A stretch of 64,000 nt of DNA from Fulvimarina pelagi HTCC2506. GTDB lineage: Bacteria; Pseudomonadota; Alphaproteobacteria; Rhizobiales; Rhizobiaceae. Both the position numbers and the translations under genes were made by a program. The notes beneath the pieces were generated by a model that made no database searches, was not told the origin of the DNA, and saw only the letters and a list, made by a program, of their open reading frames with translations. Numbering within the stretch: position 1 is the stretch's first letter; each line of letters starts with the position of its first letter. Of the stretch, positions 5,744 through 12,373 are shown one piece after another. The DNA lies in assembly GCF_000153705.1 (NCBI RefSeq), contig NZ_DS022272.1:1371839-1435838 (forward strand), read 5' to 3'.

Positions 5744-6358
5744 TCAGGCTGGTTTGGTGACACGCCGAAGCGTTAGGTTGATCCGGCCGCCGTTCTTCAG
5801 AAGCGTCGACGTCGACGGATAAATGCGGTCGACACCGTGAAAACTCAGGCGCCCTTCCCCACCAAGGATCACCACATCGCCCGAACGCAGCTTGATCGAA
5901 GTCGTCCGCCCGTCGCGGTCCCGTTCGCCGACGCGGAACAGACAGTCGTCGCCGAGCGAAACCGACACGACAGGTGCAGTGAAATCTTCTTCGTCCCGAT
6001 CCTGGTGGAGACCCATCTTCGCCGTTTCCGAATAGAAGTTGACGAGGCAGGCCTCCGGGGGCGCGTCGTGCCCACTCACCTCCTTCCAGAGCTTGAGGAG
6101 CCGTTCAGGTATAGGCGGCCAGACCTCTCCGCTGTCCGGGTGGCGGGCCTGGTACCGATAACCGGACCGGTCGGCTACCCAGCCGAGTTCACCGCAGTTC
6201 GTCATCTTCACCGAAAGCGGCTTGCCGGAGCGCGGCATGACCGGCTGGAACAGCGGCGCTGCTCGCACCACAGATCGGACATCCTCGACGAGATCCTCTT
6301 GCTCGCGCCGGCCGAGATGGCCCGGAATATGCCGGACCCCTTTCGGCAGCACGTTCAC
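5744..6358 (-). CDS. alkB: AlkB-type 2-oxoglutarate/Fe(II) dioxygenase
   Basis: Repairs 1-methyladenine and 3-methylcytosine in DNA or RNA by oxidative demethylation. The 204-residue protein has the iron ligands H118-x-D120 and H174, and the 2-oxoglutarate/substrate motif R192-x-N194-x-T196-x-R198. The gene starts with GTG at 6356-6358, and that codon overlaps the TGA of the upstream luxR-type gene (GTGA), so translation is likely coupled. No ada or alkA homologue lies nearby. Control by a quorum-type regulator rather than Ada would be unusual but is only inferred from the arrangement. Confidence 0.92.
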   Translation of the reverse strand: MNVLPKGVRHIPGHLGRREQEDLVEDVRSVVRAAPLFQPVMPRSGKPLSVKMTNCGELGWVADRSGYRYQARHPDSGEVWPPIPERLLKLWKEVSGHDAPPEACLVNFYSETAKMGLHQDRDEEDFTAPVVSVSLGDDCLFRVGERDRDGRTTSIKLRSGDVVILGGEGRLSFHGVDRIYPSTSTLLKNGGRINLTLRRVTKPA

Positions 6359-7065
6359 GAGAGATAACCGAGTTGCGCGGCCATCGCGACAGTATGAGTC
6401 CGATTGGACGCATCGAGCTTCCGCTGAGCCGCGGTGAGGTATTGGGAAATCGTATACTCAGAAAGGCTCAGCACGATGCCGATTTCTGAGGACGTTTTAC
6501 CGAGCATCGCGAGCCTGAGGCAGTCGCGCTCACGTGGCGTCAGCGGATTGTTCCTGCGATTCTCGTCGAAGCGCACCGCTGCGAGCATTCCAAAGAACAC
6601 GAAGGCGAATGACTGCATTTCATAAATCACGGTGCGACTCGGAAGAGCGTTTGGTCCGGCGAAACTGAGTGCGCCGCACATCGCTGTCATGCCATGGACC
6701 GGGAGCAAGACACCTTCCGACCATCCTGCCTCGGCAACGAGTCTGGCGCCTTTGGAAGGCTTGGGATCCGAGATGCCGTAAAGCGTGTCGATGTCCCATT
6801 CGAAAGGCATAGGATCCGTCGAAAGCGTCGCGACGACGACCTTGTGACGATGGAGCTCAGCGGCCTCGTAAGACCGTTGAAACCCGTGGGACCAATTGCC
6901 CATAAGATAGCGCGTCTGCAAACCCTGCTCGTCGGTCGATGGCAGTGCTAGCGCCGCGGCATAGGTGAAGCCGTACGTATTGCCTGCCATAGCCAAGGCC
7001 GCCTCGAGATCGGCCTCGTTCCATGGCTGTCGCATGGTCGTCAAATTGATTATTGGCGACGTCAC
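6355..7065 (-). CDS. LuxR-type regulator with autoinducer-binding-like domain (solo)
   Basis: Transcription factor of 236 residues with an N-terminal autoinducer-binding-like domain (about 15-165) and a C-terminal LuxR helix-turn-helix (about 174-236; LTPRERDCLRLA, TVAMAAQLGYL). Counting from the conserved spacing of TraR, W57 corresponds to F62, Y61 to Y66, D70 to K75 and W85 to W90. Two ligand-contact positions are therefore changed, including the Asp that binds the acyl-homoserine lactone amide. No luxI lies in the window, so this is a LuxR solo. It overlaps alkB by 4 bp. An alternative start is Met11. The ligand may not be an AHL. Confidence 0.85.
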   Translation of the reverse strand: MTSPIINLTTMRQPWNEADLEAALAMAGNTYGFTYAAALALPSTDEQGLQTRYLMGNWSHGFQRSYEAAELHRHKVVVATLSTDPMPFEWDIDTLYGISDPKPSKGARLVAEAGWSEGVLLPVHGMTAMCGALSFAGPNALPSRTVIYEMQSFAFVFFGMLAAVRFDENRRNNPLTPRERDCLRLAMLGKTSSEIGIVLSLSEYTISQYLTAAQRKLDASNRTHTVAMAAQLGYLS

Positions 7066-7480
7066 CCAGGCGACCCCGCATCGCTGCGTATGAGCCCGAC
7101 CGGACGAATCCCCGTTTGCATCGCCGTGCTTTTCATCGCCGCATCGCCTCTCGTTCGGGCCCGCTCATCCTCGTGATCCAGCGCGCCATTCCGTGCCCGA
7201 CCGATTCAGCAAGAGATCGGTGTGTTTGGCAACCGCTGTTTTCACCGCAAATGTCGAATTGCTCCTAATGCCCGTGCTGCGATCTCGCTCGGTTGGATGA
7301 AGTTCCAAAAAGTTCCCGCATTGCACAAAATCACCTCTTCGCAGACGCAAAGAGATCACGTTTCTGTCAAGAAACTCCTCGATAGGAGCTTCGTCAGCGG
7401 CAACGAGGGGCCCGGGGGCCAGCCGCCGCGATCGAATGGGGTAGCGCACATGTCCATGATGGGCGGAGCGCTTGGAATGA
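7066..7480. other. 415-bp intergenic gap between luxR-type gene and rlpA
   Basis: This holds the divergent promoters of the luxR-type gene and rlpA. No lux-box-like 20-bp palindrome, convincing hairpin or gene with a ribosome site was found. Short open frames here lack family resemblance and codon bias. Confidence 0.5.
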
Positions 7481-7873
7481 ATGAGAATACGCATGAAGAT
7501 CACCGCTAAGACCATCCTCGCCGCAGCCGTTCTGGCCTTTGCTTCCGCTGGTTCGACTGTCGTTCTGACCGAGACCGCCGCCGCCGCTTCTGCTGGTGGC
7601 CATGCTTCCTACTACGGCAAACGCTTCCATGGCCGCACCACGGCAAATGGCGAAACCTTCAACATGAATGCCATGACCGCTGCGCATAAGACGCTTCCGT
7701 TCGGCACTAAGGTGAAGGTCACGAACCGCAACAACGGCAAGTCCGTCGTTGTGCGCATCAATGATCGTGGTCCGTTCGTCGGGGGCCGTGTCATCGATCT
7801 TTCCCGCGGCGCCGCTGCGAAGATCGGCATGATTAATTCCGGCACCGCTGACGTCAGCATCGATATTCTCTAA
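7481..7873 (+). CDS. rlpA: RlpA-like double-psi beta-barrel protein
   Basis: Short (130-residue) exported RlpA-family protein; members cut naked glycan strands or bind septal peptidoglycan. A signal peptide covers about residues 1-36, rich in Ala. The mature part is essentially one DPBB domain: GHASYYG, the H-G-R-x-T-A-N-G-E segment, [10 protein letters not shown], and the R-I-N-D-R-G-P-F motif carrying the catalytic-type Asp. It lacks the C-terminal SPOR domain of E. coli RlpA, as is common in rhizobia. A second ATG 12 bp downstream (7493) is an equally possible start. Confidence 0.88.
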
Positions 7874-7979
7874 GAACAACGGGAAAAGAGCGAGGCTCGA
7901 ACGAAAGGCGAGAGATCGCCGGGGCGCAGCTCGATCCAATCAAATAACAGACCGGCGGATGTCGGTCGTACGACGGCAG

Positions 7980-8011
7980 GCGGCGTTTCCCAGGCGGATG
8001 CGCCGCTTTTT
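7980..8011 (+). terminator. Possible terminator after rlpA
   Basis: GCGGCG and CGCCGC arms surround a 15-nt loop and are followed by five T. The stem is short, but the position about 110 bp after the rlpA stop is reasonable. Confidence 0.4.
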
Positions 8012-8342
8012 CGTTTTGACCGACGACGGTTCTGCGCTGACGCTCAGCCTGTGCCTAAAACATTCCACCTTGATACAAGAGATATGAGCATAGGCTTCGA
8101 AGCTTTTCTTCGAAGGGCCTAGGCTCCCAGCGTCATCGGTCAGGCTTGTATTCCGGCCGCTCGATGATACTCCTTCATTGAAAAACATGGCCTACTTCAC
8201 ATCTAGCGGCGTTGTAAGCGGACAGCAGAGACCGCACCTTGATCCGGATCGACAGCAATGGGCTAAGTCGATCATGCTTCGTAGCGCTCCTTCAGGGAAT
8301 TAAACGAACGATCGGACAGCTAGTGAAAGGAGAGATAACCCA
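8012..8342 (+). promoter_or_regulatory. Upstream region of chvI
   Basis: About 330 bp without a gene, holding the chvI promoter and leader. An aaaggagag Shine-Dalgarno lies 9 bp before the chvI ATG. No ChvI-type operator or riboswitch could be recognised by eye. In Sinorhizobium, Agrobacterium and Brucella pckA is divergent from chvI; it is absent here. Confidence 0.5.
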
Positions 8343-9053
8343 ATGCCGACCATCGCCCTCGTCGATGACGACCGCAACATATTGACGTCAGTGTCGATCG
8401 CGCTCGAGAACGAGGGATACAAGGTCGAGACCTATACCGATGGTCTCTCCGCGCTCGACGGTCTGCAGGCGAGCCCCCCCAATCTGGCGATCTTCGACAT
8501 CAAGATGCCGCGTATGGACGGAATGGAGCTCCTGCGCCGGCTGCGCCAAAAATCCGACATTCCAGTGATCTTTCTGACATCCAAGGACGAAGAGATCGAC
8601 GAGTTGTTCGGTCTGAAGATGGGAGCTGACGACTATATTCGGAAACCCTTCTCCCAGCGACTGCTCGTGGAGCGCGTCAAGGCAATACTGCGGCGCGGCG
8701 CAGCCCGGGAGGCGAGTCCGGTAAGGGCCGGCAACGTTACCAATCCGGAAACGTCCTTGGAGCGCGGCCAGCTTGTGATGGACCAGGAGCGCCACACCTG
8801 CACGTGGAAGAGCATGCCGGTGACGCTTACGGTGACCGAGTTTTTGATCCTGCAATCGCTGGCGCAACGGCCGGGCGTGGTGAAATCGCGGGATGCGTTG
8901 ATGGATGCGGCCTATGACGAGCAGGTCTACGTAGACGACCGCACTATCGACAGCCACATCAAGCGGCTACGAAAGAAATTCAAGGCGATCGACGACGATT
9001 TCGACATGATCGAAACGCTCTATGGCGTAGGATATCGTTTCCGCGAGATGTAA
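8343..9053 (+). CDS. chvI: OmpR-family response regulator ChvI
   Basis: Cytoplasmic DNA-binding response regulator (236 residues) of the ChvG-ChvI (ExoS-ChvI, BvrS-BvrR) system, which senses acid and envelope stress in alphaproteobacteria. The receiver domain (1-115) has acidic residues D8-D10, phosphoacceptor D52, a Thr/Ser at about 79-80 and K101. A winged-helix output domain (about 140-235) ends with the [14 protein letters not shown] segment and GVGYRF. Orthology rests on the neighbouring chvG and PTS genes and on the close fit to the rhizobial form. It starts the chvI-chvG-hprK-EIIA-ptsH cluster. Confidence 0.95.
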
Positions 9054-9186
9054 CTGTGGACGACTCGCAATCGGACGTTCAATCTCGTCCTCTATGCCGC
9101 CGGGGCAATGACTTGGCGCTTACTTCCGCCCTGAACACGGCCGAAACTACCGGCGGCCATAAGACAATGGAGTTGGCGCGGCACTG

Positions 9187-10983
9187 ATGGCATCGGTCTC
9201 CGACGCGAGCGACAACGAGGAAAGGCGGCGACGTGAGTTGTCGCGGCGCAGACGGTTGCGCCGTTTTCCCTTCGTCAGACGCATGCTGTTCCGCTCGCGC
9301 TGGCTGTTGTCGCACACGATCTTCTCGTCGCTGACACGGCGCATCGTCTTCCTCAATCTCGTCGCACTCATCGTCCTCGTCTCGGGCATCCTCTATCTCA
9401 ATCAGTTCAGAGCGGGCCTGATCGATGCGCGAGTGGAAAGCCTTCTGACGCAAGGCGAGATCATGGCCGCGGCAATCGCCTCTTCAGCGACCGTCGACAC
9501 CAATTCGATCACCCTCGACCCCGAGCGCCTTCTGGAACTCCAGGCCGGTGACACGCTGACGCCCTCATCCAGCGGGACCGAGAGTTTGGATTTCCCGATC
9601 GAGCCGGAGCGTGTCGCACCGTTGCTGGGTCGACTGATCTCACCGACGCGGACGCGGGCTAGACTGTACGATCGCGACAGCAATCTCATCCTCGACACAC
9701 GACATCTCTACGCGCAGGGGCAGGTCCTTCGATACGATCTGCCGCCGATTGAGCCTGAGGAAGAAACGCTTATCGACGACGCGGTCGGCTGGTTCGAACG
9801 CCTGTTTTCCGGCAGCGAGCTTCCAACCTATCAGGAAACGCCAGGAGGCTCGGGCACCACCTACCCGGAAGTTGTCAATGCGCTGACGGGCGGACCGGCG
9901 ACAGTGGTGCGGGCAACAGAAAACGGCGAACTGATCGTTTCGGTGGCGGTGCCGATCCAGCGTTTCCGTGCGGTCCTCGGCGTCCTCCTTCTCTCCACAC
10001 AGGGCGGTGATATCGACAAGATCGTGCAAGCCGAGCGGACTGCAATTGTGCGGACTTTCGCGGTGGCGGCCCTTGTAACAATCGCCCTGTCGATATTGCT
10101 TGCGTCAACGATCGCAACCCCTCTGAGAAAGCTTTCAGCCGCGGCCGTTCGCGTGCGGCGCGGAGTGAACGTTAGGGCTGAAATACCTGATTTCGGCGAT
10201 CGTGCGGACGAGGTGGGCAATCTCGCCGTGGCGCTCAAGGACATGACGCGGGCGCTCTATGCACGGATCGATGCTATCGAGTCGTTTGCAGCCGATGTCA
10301 GCCACGAACTGAAGAACCCCCTTACCTCGCTCAGGAGCGCGGTTGAGACCCTGCCGCTCGCCAAGAGCGAGACGAACCGCGAGCGTCTCCTTGAGATCAT
10401 TCAACATGACGTGCGGCGGCTCGACCGCTTGATTACCGACATCTCCGACGCTTCCCGTCTCGATGCAGAACTCGCGCGACAAGAGGCCCACACAGTCGAT
10501 ATAGCCAAGCTCCTGGACAATGTGGTCCAAGGCGTGCGCGGGAGGGTCCAGCCGGATCGAAAGACGAAAATCGAACTGAAGGTTCAGCCGATCCCGGCTA
10601 ACGTCAAAGGCGGAACCGAGGTTGTCGGGCACGATCTCAGACTTGGCCAGGTCTTCACCAATCTCATCGAGAACGCCCGATCCTTCGTCCCCGACGAAGG
10701 CGGACGCATCGAAATCAACGTGCGCCGTCGCAGCAATCGTCTGGTGGTGACGGTCGAAGATAACGGGCCGGGTATACAGGCAGAGGACATCGACCGCATC
10801 TTTGAGCGCTTCTATACCGATCGGCCTGACGCGGAGGCCTTCGGCCAGAATTCCGGTCTCGGCCTTTCGATCAGCCGTCAGATTGTCGAGGCCCACGGCG
10901 GCACGATTCGCGCTGAGAATGTCATCGAGAACCAGACCGTGCGCGGAGCTCGCTTCATCGTCTCCCTGCCGGCCGGCAGCTGA
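9187..10983 (+). CDS. chvG: Sensor histidine kinase ChvG (ExoS/BvrS)
   Basis: Inner-membrane sensor kinase of 598 residues, partner of ChvI. An Arg-rich cytoplasmic start is followed by TM1 (about 53-71), a roughly 210-residue periplasmic sensor region (in relatives bound by ExoR), TM2 (about 286-308), HAMP, HisKA with phosphoacceptor H373 (VSHELKNPLTS), and HATPase with N-box NLIENA, G1 DNGPGI and G2 GLGLSIS. The gap to chvI is 133 bp, so an internal promoter is possible. The Arg/Glu-rich first 35 residues are a little longer than strictly needed; a later start is possible. Confidence 0.94.
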   Translation: MASVSDASDNEERRRRELSRRRRLRRFPFVRRMLFRSRWLLSHTIFSSLTRRIVFLNLVALIVLVSGILYLNQFRAGLIDARVESLLTQGEIMAAAIASSATVDTNSITLDPERLLELQAGDTLTPSSSGTESLDFPIEPERVAPLLGRLISPTRTRARLYDRDSNLILDTRHLYAQGQVLRYDLPPIEPEEETLIDDAVGWFERLFSGSELPTYQETPGGSGTTYPEVVNALTGGPATVVRATENGELIVSVAVPIQRFRAVLGVLLLSTQGGDIDKIVQAERTAIVRTFAVAALVTIALSILLASTIATPLRKLSAAAVRVRRGVNVRAEIPDFGDRADEVGNLAVALKDMTRALYARIDAIESFAADVSHELKNPLTSLRSAVETLPLAKSETNRERLLEIIQHDVRRLDRLITDISDASRLDAELARQEAHTVDIAKLLDNVVQGVRGRVQPDRKTKIELKVQPIPANVKGGTEVVGHDLRLGQVFTNLIENARSFVPDEGGRIEINVRRRSNRLVVTVEDNGPGIQAEDIDRIFERFYTDRPDAEAFGQNSGLGLSISRQIVEAHGGTIRAENVIENQTVRGARFIVSLPAGS

Positions 10984-10994
10984 CGCCCGCCATC

Positions 10995-11450
10995 ATGCGC
11001 GAGAACGTTCACGGAACGGCGCTACTTATCGGGCGGGTCGGCATTCTCATCCGCGGCCCGGCGCAAAGTGGTAAGACAAGTCTTTGCATCTCGCTCCTCA
11101 GGCGAGCAGCTTCGATCTCCCAGACCGCCTATCTGATTGCCGACGACCGAGTCGACCTTCGCACCTGCGAAGATCAGATCATCATGAGTTCGCCTGAAGC
11201 TCTCACGGGGCTCGTTGAAATTGCCGGCATCGGGATCGTCCGCGAGGAGACCGCAGAGTCCTCCCCGCTTTTACTGCTCGTAGACCTCGTTGCGGCGGAA
11301 GAACGCACACGGATGCCCGATGAGGACGCCAGTATCCATATACTGCATGGGCACAGGGTTCGGCGGATTGCGTTGCCGATGCGCGACGCAGCATTTTCTG
11401 CCGATGTGATATTAACGCTCCTGAAGAACGATGACTGGCGACTTGGCTAA
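10995..11450 (+). CDS. hprK: Short HPr kinase/phosphorylase (HprK C-terminal domain only)
   Basis: 151-residue form typical of alphaproteobacteria, which lacks the N-terminal domain of Gram-positive HprK. It phosphorylates and dephosphorylates HPr on the regulatory serine. The Walker A motif GPAQSGKTS is at residues 21-29. The HprK signature E-I-A-G-I-G-I follows about 45 residues later, and an Asp-rich DDRVDL lies between them. It starts 11 bp after chvG, so it is probably cotranscribed. Together with the EIIA and HPr genes downstream it forms a PTS branch with no sugar permease here. Confidence 0.92.
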   Translation: MRENVHGTALLIGRVGILIRGPAQSGKTSLCISLLRRAASISQTAYLIADDRVDLRTCEDQIIMSSPEALTGLVEIAGIGIVREETAESSPLLLLVDLVAAEERTRMPDEDASIHILHGHRVRRIALPMRDAAFSADVILTLLKNDDWRLG

Positions 11451-11619
11451 AAGTCGTCTTGCTTTCTAAATCAGAACGTTGGACCTTATTCAAAACAAGC
11501 GACGCTCGCACCAGCAAGACGCGTTAGAGTACGAGACCGGCCAATGGCGAACGGCCAGAATCTCGAGTGAATACCGGGAGGGCGACGATGGGGATACGGC
11601 TTAGGGATGTTCGGCCCAG

Positions 11620-12021
11620 ATGATCGGCCTCGTCCTCGTAACCCACGGCCGTTTGGCCGAGGAATTTCGCAACGCGCTCGAACACGTCGTCGGGCCGCAG
11701 GAAGCCTTCGAGACGATCTCGATCGGGCCTGAAGACGACATGGAGCAGCGTCGGACCGACATCATCGAAGCTGTCGGTCGGGCCGAGCGCGGTAAGGGCG
11801 TGATCATCCTCACGGACATGTTCGGCGGAACGCCGTCGAACCTCGCAATCTCCGTAATGGACGGAAGCCGTGTCGATGTTTTGGCCGGCGTAAACCTTCC
11901 TATGCTGATCAAACTGGCCAGCGTTCGGGTAGAAAAGCCGCTCGATCAGGCCTTAATCGAGGCACAGGAAGCGGGTCGCAAGTATATCAACGTGGCGAGC
12001 CGTGTGCTGAGCGGGACATAG
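11620..12021 (+). CDS. manX: Mannose-type PTS EIIA protein
   Basis: 133-residue cytoplasmic EIIA of the mannose (EIIA-Man/ManX) superfamily. The phosphoacceptor is His9 in the LVTHG segment; the fold-typical ILTDMFGGTPSNLA and LAGVNLPML segments follow. No EIIB, EIIC or EIID lies in the window, so it is taken as a regulatory rather than transport EIIA, as in other alphaproteobacteria where this branch influences ChvGI signalling and carbon/nitrogen control. The start at 11620 fits the family N-terminus exactly. Five bp separate it from ptsH. Confidence 0.93.
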   Translation: MIGLVLVTHGRLAEEFRNALEHVVGPQEAFETISIGPEDDMEQRRTDIIEAVGRAERGKGVIILTDMFGGTPSNLAISVMDGSRVDVLAGVNLPMLIKLASVRVEKPLDQALIEAQEAGRKYINVASRVLSGT

Positions 12022-12025
12022 GGAC

Positions 12026-12373
12026 ATGAGACGCATCCCACTCCTTGATGACGAAAGCGGGCAATCGGTCGTCGACCGACACGAACGGCGAACCGCCAAC
12101 GACAAGGTCGAACGGGTGCTGACGATCTGCAATCGCCGCGGTTTACATGCCCGGGCGTCCGCCCGGTTCGTCCAGACCGTCGATCAGTTCGACGCCGAAG
12201 TAACAGTCAAGCGGGATGGCATGTCTGTTGGCGGCCTCTCGATTATGGGCCTGATGATGCTGGCGGCGACAAATGGTTCCGACATTCATGTCTTCGCCAC
12301 AGGCCCCGATGCTGGCGCCGTCGTCGCTGCTTTAGCCGAACTCGTGAACGACCGGTTTGGCGAGGACTCCTGA
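12026..12373 (+). CDS. ptsH: HPr phosphocarrier with N-terminal extension
   Basis: 115-residue HPr. The catalytic His is H41 in NRRGLHARAS, and the HprK target is S72 in GLSIMGLMML, exactly 31 residues later as for His15/Ser46 of classical HPr. About 25 extra residues precede the HPr domain and are rich in Asp, Arg and Gln. Short N-terminal extensions occur in rhizobial HPr, but a start further in cannot be excluded because no good Shine-Dalgarno plus ATG exists there. Phosphate should come from a PtsP/EI-Ntr-type enzyme encoded elsewhere. Confidence 0.93.
   Translation: MRRIPLLDDESGQSVVDRHERRTANDKVERVLTICNRRGLHARASARFVQTVDQFDAEVTVKRDGMSVGGLSIMGLMMLAATNGSDIHVFATGPDAGAVVAALAELVNDRFGEDS

Follow-up and report, generated by a model that had tools for sequence, protein, structure and literature searches.

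The luxR-alkB locus

The window (the whole stretch of 64,000 nucleotides of Fulvimarina pelagi HTCC2506 DNA that was analysed) contains a gene coding for a LuxR-type regulator, which is followed by alkB, coding for a dioxygenase (Table 1). The luxR reading frame is real and its GTG start is consistent with the N-termini of the orthologs. On one side the gene is flanked by alkB and on the other by a gene which by eye is rlpA-like; pip is at neither side. By eye from the translations the rlpA-like gene is the first in a block on the opposite strand (7481..12373, +) which continues with homologs of chvI and chvG, then an hprK-like gene, and then the genes for PTS EIIA and HPr; luxR-alkB adjoins this block upstream and points away from it.

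Table 1. Features of the luxR-alkB locus, with positions in the window
Feature	Position	Strand	Remarks
alkB, 2OG-Fe(II) dioxygenase (AlkB-type dealkylase)	5744..6358	-	4-bp overlap with the 3' end of luxR; sole match in the genome
luxR-type solo regulator	6355..7065	-	236 aa, GTG start; two-domain protein
Codon of Trp90 (TraR W85 position)	6796..6798	-	Trp in 35/35 orthologs
Codon of Lys75 (TraR D70 position)	6841..6843	-	Lys in 18, Ser in 14, Thr in 3 of 35 orthologs; never Asp
Codon of Phe62 (TraR W57 position)	6880..6882	-	Phe in 35/35 orthologs
Second GANTC site (GAATC)	7106..7110	.	upstream of luxR; weak, post hoc
GANTC site (GATTC), candidate CcrM site	7203..7207	.	upstream of luxR; weak, post hoc

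The regulator protein

The protein belongs to the LuxR family, since both Pfam domains score above their curated cut-offs: Autoind_bind at about residues 17-158 (47.9 bits, cut-off 23) and the GerE helix-turn-helix at about residues 174-229 (50.4 bits, cut-off 23.5). It falls outside the subfamilies to which it was compared. The best NCBIfam match is TIGR03541 (PA1136/HchA-associated regulators), where 68.9 bits stands against a cut-off of 215.6, and the scores for VisR and VisN are 47.9 against 300 and 36.7 against 250 bits. The plant-associated solos (OryR/NesR) are recognized by W57M, Y61W and a neighbouring pip gene; here the two residues are Phe62 and Tyr66.

The ligand pocket

The preliminary description had, from the conserved spacing in TraR, placed Phe62 at the position of W57 and Lys75 at that of D70, with Y61 and W85 retained as Tyr66 and Trp90. 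All four assignments were borne out by alignment. The closest solved structure is LasR (6mvn; phmmer E 1.4e-11), whose residues Y56, W60, Y64, D73, P74 and W88 (numbers counted by hand from the alignment) are opposite W58, F62, Y66, K75, V76 and W90, and a profile made from 30 orthologs has the same register over nearly the full length on both LasR (3.4e-18) and an engineered RhlR (2.4e-18). A shift of register placing Asp at position 75 is supported neither by the LasR alignment nor by the profile. The alignments also reveal two changes which the preliminary description had missed, from P71 of TraR to Val76 and from Y53 to Trp58. Gly118 is opposite LasR G113, which we take to be the equivalent of TraR G113. 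The canonical signature of AHL receptors (W57, Y61, D70, P71, W85, G113) is thus broken by W57F, D70K and P71V, while Y61 and W85 are kept. The remaining LasR and TraR positions are likewise presumed to correspond, which is consistent with the residue lists in PMC3821632.

It should be noted that an AlphaFold model made from the window protein and one ortholog was unusable (mean pLDDT 43.1), and the argument about the pocket is therefore one from sequence alignment alone. In AHL receptors D70 contacts the amide of the AHL. That D70 touches the ligand directly is stated in the available part of PMC3821632. In PauR and PluR, two LuxR proteins with non-AHL signals, the sensing of the signal is reported to be impaired when another residue, such as Asn, takes the place of the pocket Asp (available text of PMC4414361), so loss of the Asp should matter.

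Compared with the AHL receptors LasR, TraR and RhlR, the window protein has the same two-domain architecture, aligns over nearly the full length and has kept the Y61 and W85 positions; it differs from them in W57F, D70K, P71V and Y53W, and in that its genome has no luxI match. Parallels are also found among solos already described. The available part of PMC4338825 lists W57F together with D70S for AvhR, for some proteins of solo group 3 and for group 6 (W57F/L). These share with our orthogroup W57F in alphaproteobacterial solos and a Ser at position 75, but they have other gene contexts, and W85 is changed too in AvhR and group 6. The same source, in that part, gives A, R, Q or N in place of D70 for the HchA group. 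The PA1136/HchA-associated solos (TIGR03541; SmoR) resemble the window protein as its best NCBIfam match and in having D70 replaced, but the match is far below the cut-off and their partner gene is hchA where the window has alkB. A non-AHL ligand, or none, is a reasonable interpretation of these residues, though not one specific to the window protein.

Orthologs and evolution of position 75

In a first search, covering 61 genomes, five close orthologs with 62-74% identity were recovered besides the window gene itself, the next match being at about 32%. In the larger sample of the family the orthogroup was present in 35 of 394 genomes (E<=1e-50), representing 11 of 109 genera. A profile search of 397 genomes from the order (E<=1e-45) returned two matches, both of them known members from the family, and no ortholog from outside it. 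The orthogroup is confined to one family in the sampled genomes.

W58, F62, W90 and G118 are invariant in all 35 orthologs. The 18 proteins with Lys75 make up one side of a tree branch (SH-aLRT 97), and in this clade Y66, K75, R52, T51 and S134 are invariant as well. The outgroup consisted of the seven best-scoring other LuxR proteins of the family, a non-random choice; six of them have Ser and one has Gly at position 75, and none has Phe at position 62. Two other LuxR proteins of the order which have kept the Asp (L019 and L021) were in the alignment and excluded from the tree. The tree was made quickly and its outgroup branches are long; the Lys clade is well supported in it and the deeper order is not. 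Lys75 would most simply have arisen once, from Ser or Thr, and judged from the residues in orthologs and outgroup the pocket Asp was already gone at the base of the orthogroup, so that its loss is older than the window protein. The presence of Lys75 in 18 of the 35 orthologs rules it out as an oddity of a single protein; together with the fixation of F62 and W90 it argues that the substitution is maintained.

In the Lys clade the entropy is 0.56 bits at the pocket positions and 0.89 bits elsewhere in the domain (permutation p 0.061). The difference is not significant, with p values of 0.054-0.087, and of 0.18 when a longer list of residues is used. The pocket positions thus vary no more than the other positions of the domain, and decay of the pocket is unsupported; if anything they seem slightly more conserved, which weakly favours ligand binding over ligand-free action.

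This bears on a model in which the regulator is independent of any ligand, the pocket being just the folded core of the domain and the activity being set by the expression level or by partner proteins. VisN/VisR-type regulators are said to work without a ligand, and the last two thirds of the window protein are matched by the VisR model of NCBIfam (1e-12), although far under its cut-off. Three changed residues out of the six in the signature, and the tolerance for Ser, Thr and Lys at position 75 within the orthogroup, would fit such a model. This is at variance with the invariance of W58, F62 and W90, to which Y66, K75, R52 and S134 can be added in the Lys clade, and with a pocket that is not looser than its surroundings. 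We consider ligand independence possible but doubtful.

luxI and AHL signalling in Fulvimarina

The preliminary description stated that luxI is missing from the window. A search of the whole assembly (3,806,238 bases, 98.94% complete) extends this to the genome, with no match to luxI (PF00765), and the window luxR is the only match to PF03472. The same luxI model was positive in 32 of 61 relatives, which makes the negative result for the genome informative; it was positive in none of 14 named control genomes. The regulator is thus a LuxR solo, its genome being without a cognate luxI match. Among the 35 genomes with an ortholog, 22 have a luxI match (21 above the cut-off), in each case either on a different contig from the ortholog or at a distance from it of roughly 1 Mb or greater. 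Two other Fulvimarina genomes have luxI with a LuxR gene some 400-600 bases away (L041, L042), and the LuxR proteins in question have by eye kept W57, Y61, D70, P71 and W85. The window genome has no match to luxI and no second autoinducer-binding domain, while the two other Fulvimarina have a luxI with a canonical-looking LuxR nearby, which suggests that AHL signalling was lost in the window species or gained in the other two.

A solo could still sense AHLs made by neighbouring bacteria, with a rearranged anchor replacing D70. Y66 and W90 are retained, luxI matches occur elsewhere in the ortholog genomes just mentioned, and oxo-C8-HSL is reported to be bound by SmoR, a solo linked to hchA in which two residues of the AHL domain are substituted (available text of PMC4432800). 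The window protein has all three of D70, W57 and P71 replaced, however, and the canonical receptors next to luxI in the two other Fulvimarina argue that AHL sensing in the genus has a receptor of its own. A Lys at the Asp position would presumably face the N-H of the AHL amide, which also counts against AHL sensing. We find this model very unlikely.

The proposal in the preliminary description, that the protein senses a non-AHL ligand or acts without one, is supported in part, by the solo genome and by the absence of the AHL-anchoring Asp in an unshifted register. It needs qualifying in that the loss of D70 is seen throughout the orthogroup and in the outgroup, and a substituted pocket is no proof of a non-AHL ligand. 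A non-canonical LuxR solo with a non-AHL ligand or none appears to be the best reading of the sequence.

The partnership with alkB

The preliminary description had left the alkB partner unmentioned. AlkB-type homology and the iron-binding motif HxD...H are the marks of an AlkB dealkylase, and the partner gene has both. Its product matches an AlkB structure with E 1e-37, with HQD and the later His aligned, and scores 202.1 bits for Pfam 2OG-FeII_Oxy_2 (cut-off 31.2), while staying under the two NCBIfam AlkB cut-offs (192.5 versus 267 and 162 versus 231 bits).

alkB is present in 26 of the 35 orthogroup genomes and is in 25 of these the downstream, same-strand neighbour of luxR, the exception (G391) having it on a separate contig. 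In the 30 ortholog loci which were extracted with 1.5 kb flanks the arrangement is found in 24. The spacing in these 24 pairs, with gaps counted up to the first aligned residue, is a 4-bp overlap in 7, a gap of 8-89 bp in 13 and a gap of 413-726 bp in 4. The gene itself is common, with one match in each of 48 out of 61 relatives. When the best 30 of these 48 alkB loci were inspected, 24 had no ortholog of the regulator nearby, and none of the 24 had a LuxR gene (E<=1e-4, window protein as query) or hslU within 1.5 kb; the pairing is therefore specific to the lineage.

The remaining nine of the 35 genomes have kept luxR and have no alkB match at E<=1e-20, which makes alkB unlikely as the only target of the regulator and means that luxR cannot be retained for the sake of alkB alone. 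In these nine loci (L099, L101-L103 and L105-L109) luxR is near hslU and the downstream gene varies; by eye it is small phosphatase-like, a response-regulator receiver, OpgG-like or chemoreceptor-like.

hslU, transcribed divergently, lies upstream of luxR in 27 of the 30 loci and so accompanies luxR no less regularly than alkB does (24 of 30). The three exceptions are the Fulvimarina loci, none of which has hslU within 1.5 kb of luxR. They have kept the luxR-alkB pair away from hslU, so the two genes appear to have remained together through a move, and luxR-alkB was probably relocated once as a unit. The rlpA-like gene and chvI-chvG are upstream of luxR in the window genome and in F. endophytica, and in the third Fulvimarina genome (G002) the stretch examined contains the rlpA-like gene only. 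In several of the loci near hslU (L075, L076, L081 and others) a common string CTAGATGGG (reverse CCCATCTAG) was seen by eye upstream of luxR, close to the start of hslU. We take it to resemble the -10 element of heat-shock sigma-32 promoters, and as such it would serve the divergent hslU.

Some of the luxR-alkB signal could be due simply to linkage. Taken to its end, this gives a model where the two genes are neighbours by shared descent only and luxR regulates other genes, for example the divergent hslU or distant ones. Such a model has on its side the frequent hslU neighbour and the persistence of luxR, with varied downstream genes, in the nine genomes without alkB. The Fulvimarina pair which is kept although hslU is gone from its vicinity, the 4-bp overlaps, and the 25 out of 26 alkB genes found beside luxR speak against it, and we hold it as a tentative alternative only.

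Control of the pair

In the adaptive response of E. coli the regulator gene ada and alkB form one operon (available text of PMC6813329). The window likewise has a regulator gene beside alkB, but the regulator is of LuxR type and has no Ada domain. Ada_Zn_binding has no match in the window genome, nor in 27 of the 35 orthogroup genomes including all three Fulvimarina, while 6 of 14 control genomes were positive, among them E. coli, B. subtilis and Caulobacter. Ada is thus not likely to be the controller in those 27. In Caulobacter, alkB-like and ada-like genes are reported to be in one operon and to be induced by methylation damage (available part of PMC10957082), and B. abortus is reported to be without a functional Ada response (PMC6813329, same part).

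A 7-mer picked by eye, CGATTCG/CGAATCG, is found in 18 of 30 upstream regions, compared to a mean of 6.4 and a maximum of 15 in 300 shuffles, and is absent from all three Fulvimarina loci. In an unbiased ranking of 7-mers over 24 of the 30 upstream loci nothing exceeds the shuffles, and a shared operator upstream of luxR was rejected as none stands out. Within this 7-mer lies GANTC, which is the site of CcrM. Because alkB in Caulobacter is reported to be partly GcrA-dependent (available text of PMC6813329), the upstream GANTC sites were examined. They occur in 33 of 35 upstream regions, at 1.46 per 310 bases versus 0.38 in gene bodies; in the shuffles, however, 28.8 loci have a site (sd 2.0), with a maximum of 33, and the 51 sites in total are fewer than the shuffle mean of 59.4. 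In a narrower stretch, chosen post hoc and after removal of six near-identical loci, GANTC is in 26 of 29 loci versus 19.3 (sd 2.3), with none of 100 shuffles as high. AGNCT is likewise above all 100 shuffles in that stretch, and the upstream to body ratios of CANTG and AGNCT are similar to that of GANTC. Fulvimarina is the weakest case, with two sites upstream in the window genome, none in F. endophytica and a distant one in G002. The evidence is mixed, and the enrichment upstream of luxR is a hint only.

A model for the LuxR solo

The model we propose, and in which we place about as much belief as doubt, is that a LuxR solo with a non-AHL pocket (W57F, D70K and P71V, with Y61 and W85 kept) is co-transcribed with alkB. 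luxR and alkB would form one transcription unit, and on the most economical reading the regulator would control its own operon and thereby alkB, probably acting on other genes too. It would bind a small molecule which is not an AHL, or else work ligand-free.

A bolder version is unlikely, in our opinion. It supposes that the clade lost AHL recognition by going from Asp via Ser/Thr to Lys and took over alkB in a group of genomes most of which (27 of 35) lack Ada. A small, perhaps acidic, metabolite and not methylated DNA would then gate alkylation repair.

Solos with W57F and D70S are already in print. The word alkB occurs zero times in the main texts of PMC4338825 (the 2015 survey), PMC10134790 (the 2023 subgroup review) and PMC4357305 (the census), and alkylated zero times in that of PMC4338825; the available part of PMC3925955 mentions an alkB gene and LuxR regulators, not as neighbours. 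In the literature searched, with subscription journals largely outside it, neither the luxR-alkB pairing nor a Fulvimarina LuxR was found. The conserved pair is the useful fact to come out of the analysis, and it may be new.

Broken AHL signatures occur commonly among LuxR solos, and for many such proteins ligands and targets are elusive. A near-constant and well-understood partner such as alkB gives a concrete promoter and a phenotype, sensitivity to methylating agents, to work with. The luxR-alkB pair would add a non-Ada control of AlkB in alphaproteobacteria and, if the bolder version is true, there would together with the hchA-linked solos be two groups of LuxR solos tied to damage-repair or chaperone genes.
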